Shown here piece after piece: positions 8,884 to 64,000 of a DNA stretch of 64,000 bases. Position 1 is the first letter of the stretch. Every line of letters starts with the position of its first letter. A program made the position numbers and the translations under genes. Source of the DNA: an uncultured Myxococcales bacterium (GTDB lineage: Bacteria > Myxococcota_A > UBA9042 > DTJE01); assembly GCA_903936705.1 (NCBI GenBank), contig CAIZWN010000008.1, forward strand, positions 62,001-126,000, written 5' to 3'. The notes under the pieces are model-generated. The model was not told the DNA's origin. It made no database searches and saw nothing but the letters and a program-made list of their open reading frames with translations.

Positions 8884-9619
8884 CCAGCTTGCGCAGGTGG
8901 CCGCACGCCTGCTTGATTCCGGCCTGGCACGCCTTCTTCAACTCGACCCGGGCAGCCTCCTTGTCACCCTTTTCCTTCAGTGCAAGTCCCAGCCCGAACT
9001 GGGCCTCGGTGTAATCCGGCTTGATTGCCAGCGCCTTGCGATAGTTCTCGACCGCTCCAGCGTATTCCTTCTGGCGCCACAGGATGTTGGCCGACTTGAA
9101 TGCGGCTTCCGAGGATTTCGGATTCACCTTCAGGGCGGTCTGGTACAGCTTCAGCGCCCCCGGAAGATCCTCTCGGTCAACAGCAATCGCGGCAAGCCCC
9201 ATATGCGACGAGAAGTCCTTCCTGTCTATTGCCAGCGCAGCCTTCAGTTCCTTTTCAGCCCGATCGTTGAACTTCAATCTCCGCAACACGTCGCCCAGGC
9301 CTCCATGGGCCTCCTTCGCCCGCGGACCAAGGGAGATCGCTGACTCGTAAGCCGCCTGCGCCTCGGGCAGCCGGTTCAGCCAGTCGTAGGCATAAGCCAT
9401 GTTCAACTGGTACTTGAAGACCTTGGGTTCCAGCGCCGCGGCTTTCTGGAACCTCGACAACGCCTCCGCCAACCTAGCATCGTCACCCGACTTGCGAGCC
9501 ACCTCGCCGATTTTGACCCCTTCCTTGTAGAACCCTTCGGACACGCCAGACTGGGCGCTGGCAGCAGGCGCTGCAAAGACGACCACGAACACCCATGCCC
9601 ACGTCATTCGACGAATCAT
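8876..9619 (-). CDS. Exported tetratricopeptide repeat (TPR) protein
   Basis: A 247-residue secreted protein with a signal peptide (RRMTWAWVFVVVFAAPAASA, cleavage after ASA). It then has about five to six TPR units covering nearly all the rest (for example AKEAHGGLGDVLRRLKFNDR, SEAAFKSANILWRQKEY, TEAQFGLGLALKEKGD). It ends with KKACQAGIKQACGHLRKLDE, whose two cysteines may form a disulfide. TPRs scaffold protein-protein contacts; the partner is unknown. GAGGAGGTG precedes ATG 9619, whereas the longer frame (to 10102) merely reads antisense to the HIT gene. It overlaps the HIT stop (ATGA) and lnt start, so all three are coupled. Confidence 0.88.
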   Translation of the reverse strand: MIRRMTWAWVFVVVFAAPAASAQSGVSEGFYKEGVKIGEVARKSGDDARLAEALSRFQKAAALEPKVFKYQLNMAYAYDWLNRLPEAQAAYESAISLGPRAKEAHGGLGDVLRRLKFNDRAEKELKAALAIDRKDFSSHMGLAAIAVDREDLPGALKLYQTALKVNPKSSEAAFKSANILWRQKEYAGAVENYRKALAIKPDYTEAQFGLGLALKEKGDKEAARVELKKACQAGIKQACGHLRKLDE

Positions 9620-10122
9620 CGTCGCACCTCCTCGCCAGCATCCTGTTTCACGAACGCCTCGACCAGACGCAGGTGGGTTACCTCCAGCGCCTCGGGAATG
9701 ACTCGCGTCTCGGCCAGCACCGGGACGAAATTGTTGTCGCCCGACCATCGCGGAACCACGTGCATGTGGCAGTGATCTTCGATTCCAGCGCCTGCGGCCC
9801 GACCGACGTTGATACCGACATTGAACCCTTGCGGATGATAGGTGGACTCCAGAGCCCGTATCGAGCGCTGGACCAGCTCGCCCATCTCGGCCCATTCCTC
9901 GGGCAGCAAATCCACGGGTGTTGCGACATGGCGGAAAGGCACCACCATCAGGTGGCCAGATGTGTACGGAAACCGGTTCAGCATGACGAAAGCCTGTCGG
10001 CCGACCAGCACAACCAGTGTCCGGTCCGAAACCCCCTGGGCCGGAAAATCGCAGAATATGCAGCCCACGACGGCCCCCTGACCCAGATAGGCCATGCGCC
10101 AAGGTGCGAAAATCGGCTTCAT
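9616..10122 (-). CDS. HIT-family nucleotide hydrolase/phosphorylase
   Basis: A 168-residue cytoplasmic protein of the histidine triad superfamily. The catalytic triad motif is HCHMHVVPRWSGD (HxHxHxx), with FCDF and FPYTSGHLMVVPFRH as the other family blocks. The length and the C-terminal extension resemble the Ap4A phosphorylase/Fhit-like branch more than the ~110-residue HinT branch, so dinucleoside polyphosphate or AMP-conjugate cleavage is likely but not proven. ATG 10122 is chosen because it begins the conserved block (MKPIFAPWRMAYLG); a TTG at 10152 is possible. It lies 45 bases after clpX and shares ATGA with the TPR gene. Confidence 0.9.
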   Translation of the reverse strand: MKPIFAPWRMAYLGQGAVVGCIFCDFPAQGVSDRTLVVLVGRQAFVMLNRFPYTSGHLMVVPFRHVATPVDLLPEEWAEMGELVQRSIRALESTYHPQGFNVGINVGRAAGAGIEDHCHMHVVPRWSGDNNFVPVLAETRVIPEALEVTHLRLVEAFVKQDAGEEVRR

Positions 10123-10167
10123 GGTCGCGCCTGTCTCAAGACTGGGATTCAATCGCCTCTCGATCCG

Positions 10168-11430
10168 TCAGGCGGACTTCGCGTCTTCCCCCAGCACCAC
10201 CAGCGGGCATGTGCCCTGCAGCACAGCCTCCTCGTTGACGACGACCTCCTTGATGTTCTCCTCGCCAGGGATCTCGAACATCACGTCCAGCATCACCCTT
10301 TCGAGAATGGAACGCAGGCCGCGAGCTCCAGAACCACGCTGGACGGCAAGGCGCGCAATGGCCCGCAGCGCGCCCTCGGTGAACTGCAAGTCCACGCCGT
10401 CCATATCCAGCATCCATTTATACTGGCGAGACAAGGCGTTGCGAGGTTCGGTCAAAATGCGGACCAGCGCGTCCTCGTCAAGTTCGGACAAGGGGGCCGC
10501 CACAGCAAACCGACCGACGAATTCAGGTATCAAACCGAAATGCACGAGGTCCTCGGGCTGCAAGTCCCGCAGGATCGTCCCGATGTCCCGCTTGCCCCCG
10601 GTTCGCGACGGCGTCGAGCCGAACCCGATGGACCCGCCGCGCATCCGACCCTCGACAACCTTGTCCAGGCCGACGAATGCGCCACCGCAGATGAACAGGA
10701 TGTCGGTCGTATCGACGGCGACGTACTCCTGCTGCGGGTGCTTCCTGCCACCCTTCGGCGGAACGTTTGCGACAGTGCCCTCGAGGATCTTCAGCAGTGC
10801 CTGCTGCACACCCTCGCCCGACACGTCACGGGTGATCGATGGGCTGTCCCCTTTCCTGGCAATCTTGTCGATCTCGTCGACGTAGATGATGCCTCGCTTG
10901 CAGGAATCGACATCCCAGTCCGCGTTCTGCAGCAGGGCAAGGACGATGTTCTCCACGTCCTCGCCGACGTATCCCGCCTCGGTCAACGATGTCGCGTCGA
11001 CCATCGCAAACGGCACCCTCAGGATGCGCGCCAGCGTCTGCGCCAGCAGCGTCTTTCCGGATCCGGTCGGCCCCAGCAGGAGGATGTTGCTCTTTTGCAA
11101 CTCGACGTCACCAGGACGACGCCTGGTCCGCGACTCGATGCGCTTGTAGTGGTTGTAGACCGCGACGGCAAGCACTCGCTTGGCGTAATCCTGCCCGATA
11201 ACGTATTCGTCCAGTACCCGAACTATATCCTTGGGCCTCGGAAGACCAGGCTGACGGACGGGTTTTCGATCGCGCTCGGTCTCGGCAGCCATGATGTCGT
11301 TGCACAAGGCAACGCACTCGTCGCAGATGTAGACGTTCGGACCCGCGATCAGTCTGCGTGATTGGCTCTTTGCCTTGGCGCAAAAGCTGCAAAACAGCGT
11401 GTCGCGTTGCTGGTCCTTCCGCTTGTCCAC
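10168..11430 (-). CDS. clpX: ATP-dependent Clp protease ATP-binding subunit ClpX
   Basis: A 420-residue AAA+ unfoldase that feeds substrates to ClpP. An N-terminal zinc-binding domain uses C14, C17, C36 and C39. Walker A is GPTGSGKT at 120-127, Walker B is IIYVDEID, and the GYVG pore loop lies in [12 protein letters not shown]. The ClpP-docking loop is intact (SIGFG), so this is a protease partner rather than a stand-alone unfoldase. The start codon is GTG (GTGGACAAGCGG) behind GGAGG. clpP and tig are not adjacent, unlike in many bacteria. It is the first gene of an operon read from the TTGCGC/TATAAT promoter at 11488-11516. Confidence 0.97.
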
Positions 11431-11487
11431 CAGTACACCCTCCGAACCTGCATGAACCGGGAAACAACCCGGACCCAGGGGACAGGC

Positions 11488-11516
11488 ATTATACTCCCTG
11501 ACAGCCCCAGGCGCAA
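11488..11516 (-). promoter_or_regulatory. Sigma70-type promoter of the clpX operon
   Basis: On the minus strand: TTGCGC, a 17-base spacer and a perfect TATAAT (-10 at 11488-11493). A short hairpin, CCGGG-AAACAA-CCCGG (11457-11472), sits in the 5' leader between this promoter and the GTG start of clpX. Confidence 0.7.
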
Positions 11517-11534
11517 AAGCCGATCACCTAACGG

Positions 11535-12017
11535 TCAGACTGCAGGAACCCGACCGAAGTGCAGGCAGAGATCGTTGCCCTCCCAGTAGAAATCGGGGAT
11601 ACGGATCGTCTCGGGATAACCGATCTTCGCGTAGAAAGCGCGAGTCTTGGAGTACTCAGGCAGGCCTGACGTCTCGATACGAACGATGCGCCCCGCCGCA
11701 GCCCGAATCCTGGCCTCCATCTCCCGCACCAGCATGGTACCAAGACCCGCCCGCTGGACATCCGGATCCACCGCCATCCAATACAGGTCATACGACCACT
11801 GCGTAAAGGGAGTCAAACCCCAAAGAATATAGGCAGACAGGCGGCCACTGGTGCGCGTTACCGCAATTCTGTACGTGGTAGTAGGCAGGGGATTCAGCGC
11901 CTCGTCGGCCAGCTCCCGAGCGATATCCACCTCCTCCTCCGTGAAAACACCGGTCCTTCGCAGCAATTCCACTATGGCGTCGAGATCCTGCGGACATCCG
12001 TCGTCAATCGTCGTCAT
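11535..12017 (-). CDS. GNAT-family N-acetyltransferase
   Basis: A 160-residue protein with the GNAT fold. The acetyl-CoA-binding motif A is VQRAGLGTMLVREMEARIRA (the Q/RxxGxG/A loop), followed by motif B (LPEYSKTRAFYAKIGYPETI) and a closing strand. The substrate is not evident. Its ATG overlaps the stop of the upstream D-Ala-D-Ala-ligase-like gene (ATGA at 12014-12017), so the two are made together; such pairs often act on the same amino acid, peptide or peptidoglycan-like product (inference). Its 3' end faces the clpX promoter region. Confidence 0.85.
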   Translation of the reverse strand: MTTIDDGCPQDLDAIVELLRRTGVFTEEEVDIARELADEALNPLPTTTYRIAVTRTSGRLSAYILWGLTPFTQWSYDLYWMAVDPDVQRAGLGTMLVREMEARIRAAAGRIVRIETSGLPEYSKTRAFYAKIGYPETIRIPDFYWEGNDLCLHFGRVPAV

Positions 12018-13120
12018 GAAGCCTCCATGTTCGACAGGCCATGCGGTCGGCCACAGGCTGCCAGCCTTTGCGACCGTGCTACCGCAAACCCGACAACCCT
12101 CGCCACCAGATCGGCGTGCTCGATACCCTGCCGCTCGGCCTGCCTGGAAACACCGGTGCCAGGAGCCAGATCCGAGTTTGGATTCACCTCGATTACACGA
12201 GGCTGTCCCCGCGAATCCAGCCTCAAATCAACTCGGCCGTAGTCCCGAACTCCCATCACCCTAAAGGCTGCCTTCGCAACCAGCAGGACCCTGCGCTCGA
12301 GAGCCGGCGCAAGATCCGCCCGCAGCGACACGGTGCCCGAAAATTCCGGCGAATCCTCGTCCCACTTCGCCCGGTAGGTAACAATCCTTGGCAGGCCCTC
12401 GGGAAATCCTGAAAAGTCGATCTCGGCAGGCCACAGCGGCTCAAGGCGTTCGTCCCCAAGAATAGCGACGTTGATCTCTCGACCAGGAAGGTATTCCTGC
12501 ACTAAAGCCTCGCCTCCAAACGTATCGCACAGGTGGTTTATCCTGGCAGCCAGGCCCTCCGGATCAAAAACCACCGAACCACCATCGATTCCCACGGATC
12601 CATCAGTGCGTCTTGGTTTGACGAATGCGGGAAACGGGAACTCAAGGAAAGCGCTGGCTCTGTCCCTTACTTCCGAACGCGGCACCGGAACGCCGTTTCT
12701 AGCCAACAATCGCATGCACAAGCCCTTGTCCAGGCAGGCACGCAGCACCGCCGCCGAAGAACCGGTAAAGGCCACCCCGTGGCGCTCCAACAATGCAGCC
12801 ACAGCCGGCTCCCATGCCTCCCGACCCCTCAGCGACTCGATCAGATTGAAAACCACATCCGGCCGATCCTCATCCAGCATCCTTCGGACATCGGAAATAT
12901 TCCTGGCTAGACATAGGCCTACCTCTGGATATCCACGGGATTGCAACCCGTTCCTGATGTCCTGCGCAGCCTCGATGACCTCCCTGACGTCGGGACGATC
13001 CCCTCCCAAGGCATCACGATCATCACTGGCCAGCACAATCACCCTTGTACCGGTCGGTTTCCTGTCGAAAACCCTGTCGGGTCGATTATCGATTTCATCA
13101 ACTCCGATCGTTTTCATCAT
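12014..13120 (-). CDS. D-alanine-D-alanine ligase-like ATP-grasp protein
   Basis: A 368-residue carboxylate-amine ligase with the ATP-grasp fold. The N-terminal third has DRPDVVFNLIESLRGRE (substrate-domain motif) and HGVAFTGSSAAVLRACLDKG. The ATP-binding part has FPAFVKPRRTDGSVGID, VQEYLPGREINVAILGDE and the metal-binding C-terminal block RVDLRLDSRGQPRVIEVNPN. The motifs match the Ddl superfamily, but the central part differs from cell-wall Ddl, and the GNAT partner suggests a peptide or amino-acid ligase of other purpose. A TTG immediately precedes ATG 13120; ATG is preferred. The upstream region is AT-rich and shared with a divergent gene. Confidence 0.8.
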   Translation of the reverse strand: MMKTIGVDEIDNRPDRVFDRKPTGTRVIVLASDDRDALGGDRPDVREVIEAAQDIRNGLQSRGYPEVGLCLARNISDVRRMLDEDRPDVVFNLIESLRGREAWEPAVAALLERHGVAFTGSSAAVLRACLDKGLCMRLLARNGVPVPRSEVRDRASAFLEFPFPAFVKPRRTDGSVGIDGGSVVFDPEGLAARINHLCDTFGGEALVQEYLPGREINVAILGDERLEPLWPAEIDFSGFPEGLPRIVTYRAKWDEDSPEFSGTVSLRADLAPALERRVLLVAKAAFRVMGVRDYGRVDLRLDSRGQPRVIEVNPNSDLAPGTGVSRQAERQGIEHADLVARVVGFAVARSQRLAACGRPHGLSNMEAS

Positions 13121-13386
13121 CAATCATCCGGCTTGAACACCATAAATAACCTGGATATCAACAGATCCATTACCTAAAATAGCCTTTATTAACAGACATT
13201 TAACTACATTTCAGACAATCAGACAGCACCCATTACCACCTGCTCCCATGAATGATCTCTCCAACCCCAATTGTCGAGAAACTCTAGCATGGAACCAAAG
13301 TGACATCGGAGAAGGGTTATGTTCCATCGGATTCATCGTAGAATCGACTCCGATCCTTTGGTCAAATTCACGAAAGAGAGTCGTTC
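13121..13386. promoter_or_regulatory. AT-rich divergent intergenic region
   Basis: This 266-base gap separates the ATP-grasp/GNAT operon (minus) from the 667-residue protein (plus). The part at about 13135-13215 is strikingly AT-rich for this genome and likely holds divergent promoters, though no single -35/-10 pair stands out. An inverted repeat, ATCGGAG (13305-13311) with CTCCGAT (13348-13354), lies just ahead of the plus-strand gene and could form a leader stem or an operator. Confidence 0.4.
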
Positions 13387-61229: not shown

Positions 61230-61302
61230 GGGCCCATAGCTCAATTGGTAGAGCAGCGGACTCTTAATCCGGAGGTTGAAGGTTCGATTCCTTCTGGGCT
61301 CA
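61230..61302 (+). tRNA. tRNA-Lys (anticodon CTT)
   Basis: A 73-base cloverleaf. The acceptor GGGCCCA pairs with TGGGCTC (one G-T), the D-arm is GCTC-AATTGGTA-GAGC, the anticodon loop is CTCTTAA (anticodon CTT), and the T-arm is GAAGG-TTCGATT-CCTTC with discriminator A. CCA is not encoded. The top anticodon-stem pair is G-G, slightly unusual. The 3' half from the anticodon loop is part of a 100-bp direct repeat whose second copy lies at 63521. Confidence 0.97.
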
Positions 61303-61358
61303 CTGACTCGAACGCAAGCACATCAAGGGCAGCCGCGAGGTTGCCCTTTTTGTTTGTG
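61259..61358 (+). repeat. Left attachment-site repeat (attL-like) covering tRNA 3' half and terminator
   Basis: The stretch runs from the anticodon loop of tRNA-Lys through the terminator, to TTTTTGTTTGTG. It matches 63521-63620 over 100 bases with three mismatches (A/G in CTTAATCC, C/T in CTGACTCG, A/G in CGCAAGCAC). Direct repeats ending in a tRNA gene are the usual mark of site-specific integration. Confidence 0.9.
61325..61357 (+). terminator. Rho-independent terminator of tRNA-Lys
   Basis: AAGGGCA-GCCGCGAGGT-TGCCCTT followed by TTTGTTTG. It lies within the att-like repeat and is duplicated at 63587. Confidence 0.85.
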
Positions 61359-61422
61359 GTTGAACCCAACAACGCAATTCTGGCTGAATAGGGTTGATTT
61401 CTGCCCATAAAGCCACCCAAAG

Positions 61423-61534
61423 GGTAGCAGATCGGGTAGCAGCTTTCGGAAGCGTTGCCTCGCATGCCACCGCGAACTTCTTGCCGTTCCAGGATCGGGT
61501 TGCTACCTCGTTGCTACCCCCGCCGGGGTAGCAG
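61423..61534. repeat. Iterated GGTAGCAG sites, left end of element
   Basis: GGTAGCAG occurs at 61423-61430, 61435-61442 and 61527-61534. Its complement-side form TTGCTACC is at 61500-61507 and 61511-61518. The spacing and both orientations resemble arm-type binding sites for a tyrosine integrase, or a remnant of coding sequence; the sequence alone cannot decide. Confidence 0.5.
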
Positions 61535-61717
61535 TTGCACCCGAGGGGGGAGTCTGGCCTCGCCATTGCCCGTTCTAGGTCCATGCCGGACGGCGGGTGG
61601 ACTTGGTTTTCGGCCAGAGGCGAGGCCGGCGCCTTCCCAGGCCTGTTAGGGGCCTTCCACGCGAATTCCTTGTCAGGGCTAAACGTGCGGGGGTGTTTTC
61701 ACTTCCGGTTACGCGGT

Positions 61718-63181
61718 TCACGCCCAGTAGGGCACGTACTCGGCGAACTTCCTGCCCATGCTCTGGTCCTTCCGCTTGATCCGACCAGCCTCCACCGCGT
61801 CGGCGATGACGTTGCTGACCTGGGTCCGTTGCCGCTCGTTGACCTTCAACCTTTCCCGCAGGGTCGTGTTCGTCATCGTACTGTTGGCCAGGTATCGCAG
61901 GACGGCATGCTGGTAGCAGGCCTCGATGCGATCAGCAGGAGACATGTCGGAAAAGCCCAGCGGCGCACGAAGGACCACCGTGAACGCGTTGTGCTCGGCG
62001 TGGAAGGCGATAGGTGGCAGCCCGAACAACTCAATAGCGGTCACGACTTTCTGGAACCCGGAACCACGCTCTTCGCAGATACGGTATCGACGGAAGGCGG
62101 AGGCCAGCAACTCGTTGCGGGACTCCGGGGTCGTTCCGATCAGGCGATCCACCACCTTTCCGGGCAGCAGTCCACCCGGGTTTGTGAACTCGATTCGGTC
62201 GTCGAAGATCTCGATCATTGGCCCTGCGCCCGAGATGGAGAAGTCCTGGTGGATGAAGGCGTTTGCTGCCAACTCGCGAATGGCGATCTCGGGGTACACC
62301 GAGGTCTGCACCCGCAGTGCTTCGCGGATGACCTCGCTATGGGGCAGGATGGCTTTAAGGTGGTGGATGAGTCCCTCGAAGCCGATGGCGTAGCCCTTCT
62401 GACCGACCACCTCGTCGGTCGTCAGAACCTTGTTCGGTCCGGTGTATCGGACGACCCTGATACATTTTCGTTTCAGTCCTTCGTAGGGCCGGAGGTCTCG
62501 GGCGGCCGCGATAACGCCGAAGCGCGTCAGGTAGCCTCCGTCCCCATCCGATTCCACCATCGTCTCGTCGGCAAGCCAGTTCATGGCTTCCTGCGGTTCC
62601 GTCGGTTCCGGTCGCCCCAGCAGCCTGCAGACGGCCGGGACGTCCAGTGCGGCCAATGCCTCCTTGGTCGTCATCCGAGGTGAGGCCCGCAGTTCCTCCC
62701 AGCAAGGGACGCGGCTGTTCATCAGCATCGCGCCGATCTCCTGGCGTGACGCGCGGCGAGTTGAACCTCCGGATCGGACCCAAGCCTCCTCGATGGACTT
62801 GCCCCGTTTGTGGACGGGTTTGACCGCTTGTTCGGGAATCCGGATCAGCAGCAGGAGTGCGCCTCGATACTCCACAACGGCATTGTCGATGGAAATCGGC
62901 GGCTCCAACGTATCGCGCCCCAGGTTCGCGAGTTGGTTCACGATCCGTTCTACGTCTATCGAGGGGATCCCTTGTGGTGTCCCCGTGACCTGGTCAATAC
63001 CGTACACCACGAATCCGCCGCCATTCAGGTTGGCAAAGGCTGACAGGTGCTCCGTCAAGCGATCCCGATTGGGCGACAGCCCACTCTTCCAGTCCATTTC
63101 GTTGGGTTCCACGGGGATGAGGGAAAGGCTGCTCTCAAGGATGGTGAAGGCCTGTCGAACCCACGTCTTCGGCTCGTCCAT
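61718..63181 (-). CDS. AlbA_2 (Schlafen-type) / HATPase_c_4 protein, COG2865-like
   Basis: A 487-residue protein. The N-terminal AlbA_2/Schlafen-like domain (residues ~20-150) has EMDWKSGLSPNRDRL, then AFANLNGGGFVVYGIDQVTG. A middle region leads to a GHKL-ATPase-like C-terminal domain (IAIRELAANAFIHQDFSISG, FDDRIEFTNPGGLLPGKV, ERGSGFQKV). A winged-helix-like end follows (NTTLRERLKVNERQRTQVSN). COG2865 proteins are called predicted transcriptional regulators; Schlafen-like domains are also found in nucleases and in defence genes. It is the only gene of the integrated element. A weak TTTCAT/TAGAAT promoter lies at 63211-63239. A defence or regulatory role is possible. Confidence 0.88.
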   Translation of the reverse strand: MDEPKTWVRQAFTILESSLSLIPVEPNEMDWKSGLSPNRDRLTEHLSAFANLNGGGFVVYGIDQVTGTPQGIPSIDVERIVNQLANLGRDTLEPPISIDNAVVEYRGALLLLIRIPEQAVKPVHKRGKSIEEAWVRSGGSTRRASRQEIGAMLMNSRVPCWEELRASPRMTTKEALAALDVPAVCRLLGRPEPTEPQEAMNWLADETMVESDGDGGYLTRFGVIAAARDLRPYEGLKRKCIRVVRYTGPNKVLTTDEVVGQKGYAIGFEGLIHHLKAILPHSEVIREALRVQTSVYPEIAIRELAANAFIHQDFSISGAGPMIEIFDDRIEFTNPGGLLPGKVVDRLIGTTPESRNELLASAFRRYRICEERGSGFQKVVTAIELFGLPPIAFHAEHNAFTVVLRAPLGFSDMSPADRIEACYQHAVLRYLANSTMTNTTLRERLKVNERQRTQVSNVIADAVEAGRIKRKDQSMGRKFAEYVPYWA

Positions 63182-63520
63182 GAAATGAAAACCTCCCGAT
63201 ACAACGGGCGATTCTAGTCCTGTTCGTTTTCGGATGAAATAAAGACTCTCTACGTCTCTGTCTCGCAGCTGCCCCCTGGCCGCCGTTCTGGGAACTGGGA
63301 ACCAATGCCCCGACCCGGGCGTTTTTCGACTACCTTCCAGGGGCGAATTAAGGGGCGGGCGCTGGAAAGACAGGGCTTTGCAGGGTCAGCAATCCGGAAG
63401 GTCCAGCCGCTATCGGACTTTGTAGCGCAAACGGGCGAAGGGTAGCAAATCGGGGAGCAGTCACTATTGGCGCATGGCGCTGGAGTAGATATGACGCCAG
63501 AAATCAGACATTGTAACCAT
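63182..63520. other. Right gene-free flank of the integrated element
   Basis: A 339-base stretch between the AlbA_2 gene and the right repeat. It contains the AlbA_2 promoter region and, at 63441-63463, AGGGTAGCAAATCGGGGAGC, a near copy of the left-end AGGGTAGCAGATCGGGTAGC (61421-61440). No gene is supported. Confidence 0.45.
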
Positions 63521-63620
63521 GACTCTTAGTCCGGAGGTTGAAGGTTCGATTCCTTCTGGGCTCACTGATTCGAACGCAGGCACATCAAGGGCAGCCGCGA
63601 GGTTGCCCTTTTTGTTTGTG
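63521..63620 (+). repeat. Right attachment-site repeat (attR-like), partial tRNA-Lys copy
   Basis: A copy of 61259-61358 with three mismatches. It contains only the 3' half of tRNA-Lys (from the anticodon loop) and the terminator, so it is not a functional tRNA. It would be the displaced original 3' end after insertion. Confidence 0.9.
63587..63618 (+). terminator. Second copy of the tRNA-Lys terminator
   Basis: AAGGGCA / TGCCCTT stem with TTTGTTTG tail, in the right repeat. It insulates the element from the next gene. Confidence 0.8.
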
Positions 63621-63650
63621 TGAGGGTTCATCGATGTCTCGTAGGTCATC

Positions 63651-64000
63651 TCAATTGGCATCGTTCAAATAGCTGACCAGGGTTGCCAGGCCGTCAAGGT
63701 CGCGCACTTCGCCACGCATCATTGGAATTGCCGCGACCGTAATTGGCGAAAGGGCCGTACGGATCTCCTGCAGGCAGAGGGCGTCGGCCGTTGCCTGCTT
63801 CCGGTATTCCCTGGACATGGTTTGAACCTGTGCCGCAAGTCTTACCAGTGACTCGCGATCCTCAAGCTGCAGGGCCGGTTCTGCCAGCAGAGTATCCCGC
63901 AGGGCATGGTCATCGATGATGGCAGCGGATGGTATCGAACAACCTGGAGGCGGCCAGGAATGCACCTTGTTCACCAGTACGACAGAAGGTTCAAGACCGC
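63651..64000 (-). CDS. ArsA/GET3-like P-loop ATPase, C-terminal part (partial)
   Basis: The frame runs off the right edge; 116 residues are visible. PSVVLVNKVHSWPPPG and VAAIPMMRGEVRDLDGLATL, then VSYLNDAN, resemble the last part of anion-transporting ArsA/GET3-family ATPases, where VNRVHP and a terminal xVxDLxGL block occur (recalled). The nucleotide-binding Walker A lies outside the window. Its 3' end faces the element end. Confidence 0.55.
   Translation of the reverse strand, partial: GLEPSVVLVNKVHSWPPPGCSIPSAAIIDDHALRDTLLAEPALQLEDRESLVRLAAQVQTMSREYRKQATADALCLQEIRTALSPITVAAIPMMRGEVRDLDGLATLVSYLNDAN

Follow-up and report, generated by a model that had tools for sequence, protein, structure and literature searches.

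Among the described mobile elements, cis-mobilizable elements (CIMEs; a term of Pavlovic 2004, as defined in PMC5704250) are one close parallel to the 2.3-kb element of this study, which likewise keeps attL and attR, lacks genes for integration and transfer, and resides at a tRNA gene also used by full elements. It differs from them in that it appears to descend from small satellite-like islands, or to parasitise them, instead of ICEs or IMEs, comprises a single gene, and has kept arm-type sites; furthermore, no co-resident full element was found. A second point of comparison is given by PICMIs and related minimal phage satellites (PMC10803314), for which defence cargo is typical. Of the components that characterise PICMIs (integrase, AlpA, primase, and Fis), all are missing from the element. 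Pseudo-SCC elements are hitchers that borrow a recombinase in trans. MITEs and CALINs (PMC11389934) resemble the element in being non-autonomous, in keeping their recognition sites, and in needing a recombinase in trans; the element differs from all three in that the tyrosine integrase it would use in trans is specific for a tRNA gene and recognises arm sites. The literature on integrase-less tRNA islands and tycheposons provided general parallels only. The best reading of the locus, as judged from its sequence, is that of a putative cargo-only, CIME-like derivative of small PICMI-like tRNA islands.

The window analyzed (64,000 nucleotides; G000:C8:62001-126000) originates from a 4.85-Mb draft genome, G000, which consists of 84 contigs and is 96%-complete. 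A tRNA-Lys gene (CTT; 61230..61303, + strand) represents the integration target, and its 3′ half forms part of a direct repeat of 100 nt, the two copies of which (attL, 61259..61358, and attR, 63521..63620, both + strand) are 97% identical and lie 2262 nt apart. In agreement with the original prediction, the repeat contains three mismatches and starts in the anticodon stem-loop; it reaches past the 3′ end of the tRNA into the hairpin terminator, attL being composed of the tRNA 3′ half and 55 bp holding this terminator. Hairpins were located by a consensus scan in the left (61325..61348, +) as well as the right copy (63587..63610, +). Within the whole genome, these two were the only strong copies of the repeat, and the tRNA was the sole match in an Rfam scan. 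Attachment sites are thus kept at both ends as 100-bp repeats, in addition to arm sites. A foreign base composition was considered for the element and found to be unsupported, its G+C content (57–63%) being the same as that of the flanks.

Between the repeats, the element (approximately 2.3 kb) features a single convincing gene. Neither open reading frames nor a domain search revealed an integrase, primase, or helicase in it, and a tblastn search with all proteins of the sister islands described below yielded no remnant (best E 0.07). Seven tyrosine-recombinase matches were detected genome-wide in G000; a cognate integrase was not among them in the draft, the best match to the integrase of the related genome G005 being a generic recombinase (31% identity, E 9e-12). 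Since an integrase is absent from the element and a cognate one from the draft, the element is non-autonomous and no helper is seen in the genome, but a helper integrase could be encoded in a gap of the 96%-complete assembly.

Comparison of the tRNA-Lys locus in related genomes revealed both empty sites and other cargo. In G001 and G002, belonging to the same genus, the left flank is syntenic with the window up to tRNA-Lys and is followed by a convergent guaA gene approximately 100–550 bp past the tRNA, without repeat, island, or Schlafen gene. G011, representing another genus of the same family, features the same tRNA-Lys–guaA junction, again without repeat or island. In G005, guaA comes after a full island of 6.9 kb, which is bounded by tRNA-Lys on one side and a repeated tRNA 3′ half on the other. 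The empty sites and the G005 island splitting the junction indicate that elements integrate at tRNA-Lys in this family. The cargo gene was missing from the locus in all relatives compared, and the sequences identify the window element as an insertion rather than a local duplication. At the right flank, an ArsA-type ATPase gene abuts attR (window 63620-63651; L138). This gene belongs to the core DNA and is conserved in the relatives searched, but lies away from tRNA-Lys in the congeners, whereas guaA of G000 is located on contig C4. These positions point to a rearrangement at the attR edge of the element, an assembly misjoin being less likely, and they render the native empty site unreadable in the G000 strain background.

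As originally described, the element has GGTAGCAG arms; inside its two ends, they form one exact and one 1-mismatch pair. The left pair, GGGTAGCAGATCGGGTAGCA (61422..61441, +), is the exact match and is located at +193/205 from the tRNA start, while the right pair, GGGTAGCAAATCGGGGAGCA (63440..63459, +), contains one mismatch and lies 80/68 bp ahead of the attR repeat. Dinucleotide shuffling of the element gave an arm pair with at most one mismatch in 0 of 400 cases. In addition, inner arms (61501..61533), consisting of inverted TGCTACC at 61501 and 61512 and direct GGTAGCA at 61527, resemble the inner inverted pair of tRNA-Arg islands in relatives.

The G005 island carries tandem GGGTAGCAnnnnGGGTAGCA arms within both ends, like the window element. 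In total, the exact arm pattern had nine matches in 5 out of the 52 genomes of the class, all of them in this family, compared to one match for a reversed-pattern control. The other matches were located at tRNA-Arg in islands of G001 and G011, and at tRNA-Phe in an island of G009 and a locus of G001, and every relative of the G005 integrase with at least 59% identity has arms beside it. The search for arms near integrases, proposed together with the original prediction, accordingly found them flanking integrases elsewhere, including at the same tRNA-Lys gene. In the integrase-bearing islands, the left pair is positioned at +170/182 from the tRNA start (171/183 at tRNA-Phe), and in three of them the right pair lies 79/67 bp ahead of the tRNA half copy, the geometry being constant across tRNA-Lys, tRNA-Arg, and tRNA-Phe. 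What characterises a site of the G005-type integrase, namely an anticodon-loop core and tandem GGGTAGCA arms at conserved spacing, was found at both ends of the window element. Its second right repeat is degenerate and its left pair is placed 23 bp further out than usual; given these two features, the arm sites may be decaying. The shift matches extra terminator sequence in the window repeat. As this sequence does not resemble the congeners' terminators, the attP half seems to have been made in the G000 lineage.

Sister islands with integrases being 59–77% identical to that of G005 are present in G001, G009, and G011. Common to these and the G005 island are the integrase, an HTH_17 protein resembling AlpA, a primase-like protein, and a helicase, which in G005 is of the DUF3631 type. 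Pfam scans recognised no conjugation genes in them; an ICE or IME origin of the window element is therefore not indicated. Similar to PICMIs (PMC10803314), they feature int, a gene overlapping it (by 4 nt in the G005 and G001 islands), the HTH_17/AlpA-like protein, and a primase, and no capsid genes were seen. However, the PICMI model requires Fis and a primase of the DUF3987/DUF5906 type, and since neither was found, the sister islands were not filed as PICMIs. Close relatives of their integrase were not detected in IMG/VR, and, as far as the searches reached, the islands represent a previously uncharacterised tRNA satellite-like family. In G009 (L135, C47; approximately 1900-2132), a second, degenerate left end with arms follows the attR of the integrase-bearing tRNA-Phe island, resulting in a tandem array. 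A unit of 1.77 kb between two copies of the tRNA-Arg 3′ half was observed in tandem with the 7.4-kb integrase island of G001 (L134, C89; 4213-6034); it lacks arms as well as a clear gene and was set aside.

Taken together, the 2.3-kb stretch is probably an integrated, non-autonomous CIME-like element that carries a single predicted Schlafen-type defence effector as cargo and would depend on an integrase supplied in trans. The minimal cargo-island layout proposed originally gained support from the empty sites in relatives and from arms flanking integrases elsewhere. A G005-type integrase would have recombined the element at the anticodon-loop core, supplied either by a full island in trans or, prior to the deletion, by the ancestral form of the element itself. 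At present, the element would be stranded, excision or movement occurring only when such an island enters the cell, and the best reading is that it may move solely with an integrase supplied in trans. Its single gene would represent fitness cargo.

An alternative that deserves serious attention, even if we would not put it at even chances, is that the element is a pure relic: an island of about 7 kb would have lost integrase, primase, and helicase in one internal deletion, the remainder being immobile and kept for its cargo. CIMEs usually arise in this way (PMC5704250). The retention of attachment sites and arms, with the right arm pair and attR being partly degenerate, and the failure to find a helper in G000 are consistent with this course of events. 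On the other hand, the element contains neither a scar nor a remnant of island genes, the arm spacing at its right end is still intact, and further units with arms but without an integrase are present in the family, which suggests more than one accident.

Two further loci of this kind were found at tRNA-Phe genes. In G001 (L133, G001:C152:38000-51205), a ParE-like toxin region and an XamI-type restriction enzyme with a C5 cytosine methylase (genes at 9558-12016) come after the tRNA (13068-13141, −) and arms (12941-12959), without an integrase. In G000 itself (L170, G000:C35:36000-50000; tRNA at 10260-10335, −), arm pairs at +162/173 and +1349/1361 are 1.2 kb apart and enclose an uncharacterised 226-aa protein, a ParE toxin being encoded past the second pair. 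The tRNA-Phe locus of G002 contains neither arms nor ParE cargo. Neither alignment nor genome search revealed an attR for the two arm-bearing loci, which for this reason are not counted as proven elements; together with the window element, their sequences suggest a recurrent class.

Integrase-less units with cognate arms could be a regular type of transferable hitchhiker, using integrases that small tRNA satellites encode, a possibility that we regard as rather doubtful. It would account for three arm-bearing, integrase-less loci in two genomes with defence or toxin cargo (Schlafen in the window; ParE, XamI restriction enzyme, and C5 methylase in G001; ParE at tRNA-Phe of G000), as well as for the tandem arrangement next to the full G009 island and for the repeat terminator differing from that of the congeners, which implies that attP was made in this lineage. 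Weighing against regular hitchhiking, both ends are present in the window element only, and there is no same-species genome in which movement could be seen. More speculative still, and unlikely at present, is the proposal that such single-module tRNA cassettes (Schlafen; XamI restriction-modification with ParE; ParE) form a recurring class moved in trans by PICMI-like satellite integrases, as second-order hitchhikers or satellites of satellites. If the arms are functional, a one-gene unit of 2.3 kb would be deliverable to a tRNA gene by the integrase of another element. This would illustrate a route by which single defence genes lacking mobility genes of their own are spread, and genes classified as 'isolated' or 'chromosomal' may then be mobile; the arm signature offers a concrete handle for finding such units.

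The cargo gene (61718..63181, − strand) encodes 487 aa, is intact, and is preceded by a strong ribosome-binding site, GGGAGG (63192..63197, −), 10 nt ahead of the ATG. The description of a lone gene with AlbA_2 and GHKL-ATPase domains held: SLFN_AlbA_2 (aa 25-144, E 2e-15) and HATPase_c_4 (aa 318-404, E 4e-25) exceeded the Pfam cut-offs, followed by a wHTH-like C-terminus (aa ~415-487). An AlphaFold2 model based on 12 sequences (mean pLDDT 70) features a C-terminal helix/wing unit with pLDDT values of about 73–88, and its comparison with the PDB returned 3LMM, Schlafen cores, and GHKL kinases. The combination of AlbA_2, HATPase_c_4, and a C-terminal winged helix, the last deduced from the model, places the protein in the Schlafen–GHKL–wHTH family. 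No PADLOC or NCBIfam family was meaningfully matched, pAgo-related PADLOC matches being dismissed as weak, partial, and fringe. Alignment located a Schlafen-like motif, E25-xxxx-D30-W31-K32 (codons at 63086..63109, −), that is invariant in the ten full-length homologues aligned. In this ExxxxDhK motif, D30 occupies the position of the second glutamate in canonical ExxxxExK, a motif that is essential in SLFN14; the exchange is compatible with the D-(D/E)hK pattern of restriction enzymes (PMC12215978).

The gene family itself is already known and not new. Proteins composed of Schlafen, minimal histidine kinase, and wHTH domains have been catalogued with BREX and were proposed to cleave tRNA in abortive infection (PMC12839542, citing a preprint by Taboada et al. 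2025). The window gene shares with them the AlbA_2/Schlafen domain, the GHKL ATPase, the C-terminal wHTH, and homologues in type I restriction-modification (R-M) loci; it differs in standing alone on a tRNA element, without R-M or BREX neighbours, and represents a compact stand-alone Schlafen candidate. Close homologues (55–69% identity) were found in Betaproteobacteria, with examples residing between HsdM/HsdS and HsdR (L146), after HsdR/HsdS (L142), or adjoining HsdR (L085); another (L139) has a DNA methylase and a nucleotidyltransferase (MNT)/HepT pair as neighbours. Distant homologues (30–38% identity, near full length) occur in Streptococcus satellite phages and a Burkholderia phage, and further ones in 107 plasmid records. 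In the Streptococcus satellite phage Javan114 (L203; 2983-4449), a full-length homologue located at the satellite end is the immediate neighbour of the integrase. The family occurs in type I/III R-M and BREX loci, satellite phages, and plasmids, consistent with the defence contexts originally noted for AlbA_2/Schlafen-type proteins.

As deduced from the intact ExxxxDhK motif, the product is likely an abortive RNase, and a role as defence RNase is its likeliest predicted function. It would act as a metal-dependent Schlafen-type RNase of AlbA_2 fold, gated by the GHKL ATPase and wHTH domains, either in abortive phage defence or as a backup effector to restriction. The main rival, in which the product regulates transcription or serves as a recombination/regulatory helper, appears unlikely: the wHTH domain, the historical annotations of homologues ('transcriptional regulator' and 'RecG-like helicase'), and the occurrence of some homologues alone in core DNA or plasmid backbones would fit it, but the conserved acidic motif, the Schlafen-fold matches, and the R-M/BREX linkage argue for the defence RNase.

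Finally, it is highly improbable that the locus arose without site-specific recombination, be it through a simple local duplication of the tRNA 3′ end or because the gene is ancestral: the repeat does run 55 bp past the tRNA, compared to repeats of about 45–50 bp in all in other islands, and the flanks are alike in composition, but the empty sites of G001, G002, and G011, the absence of the gene from the locus in all relatives, and a sister island that occupies this tRNA and shares the arms at conserved spacing contradict both versions, which were named in the original prediction as capable of overturning it. A second, different tRNA-Lys island, encoding an integrase with 42% identity and featuring TTGTGCA-type arms, was observed within the family in G004 (L079/L080; C75, C111).
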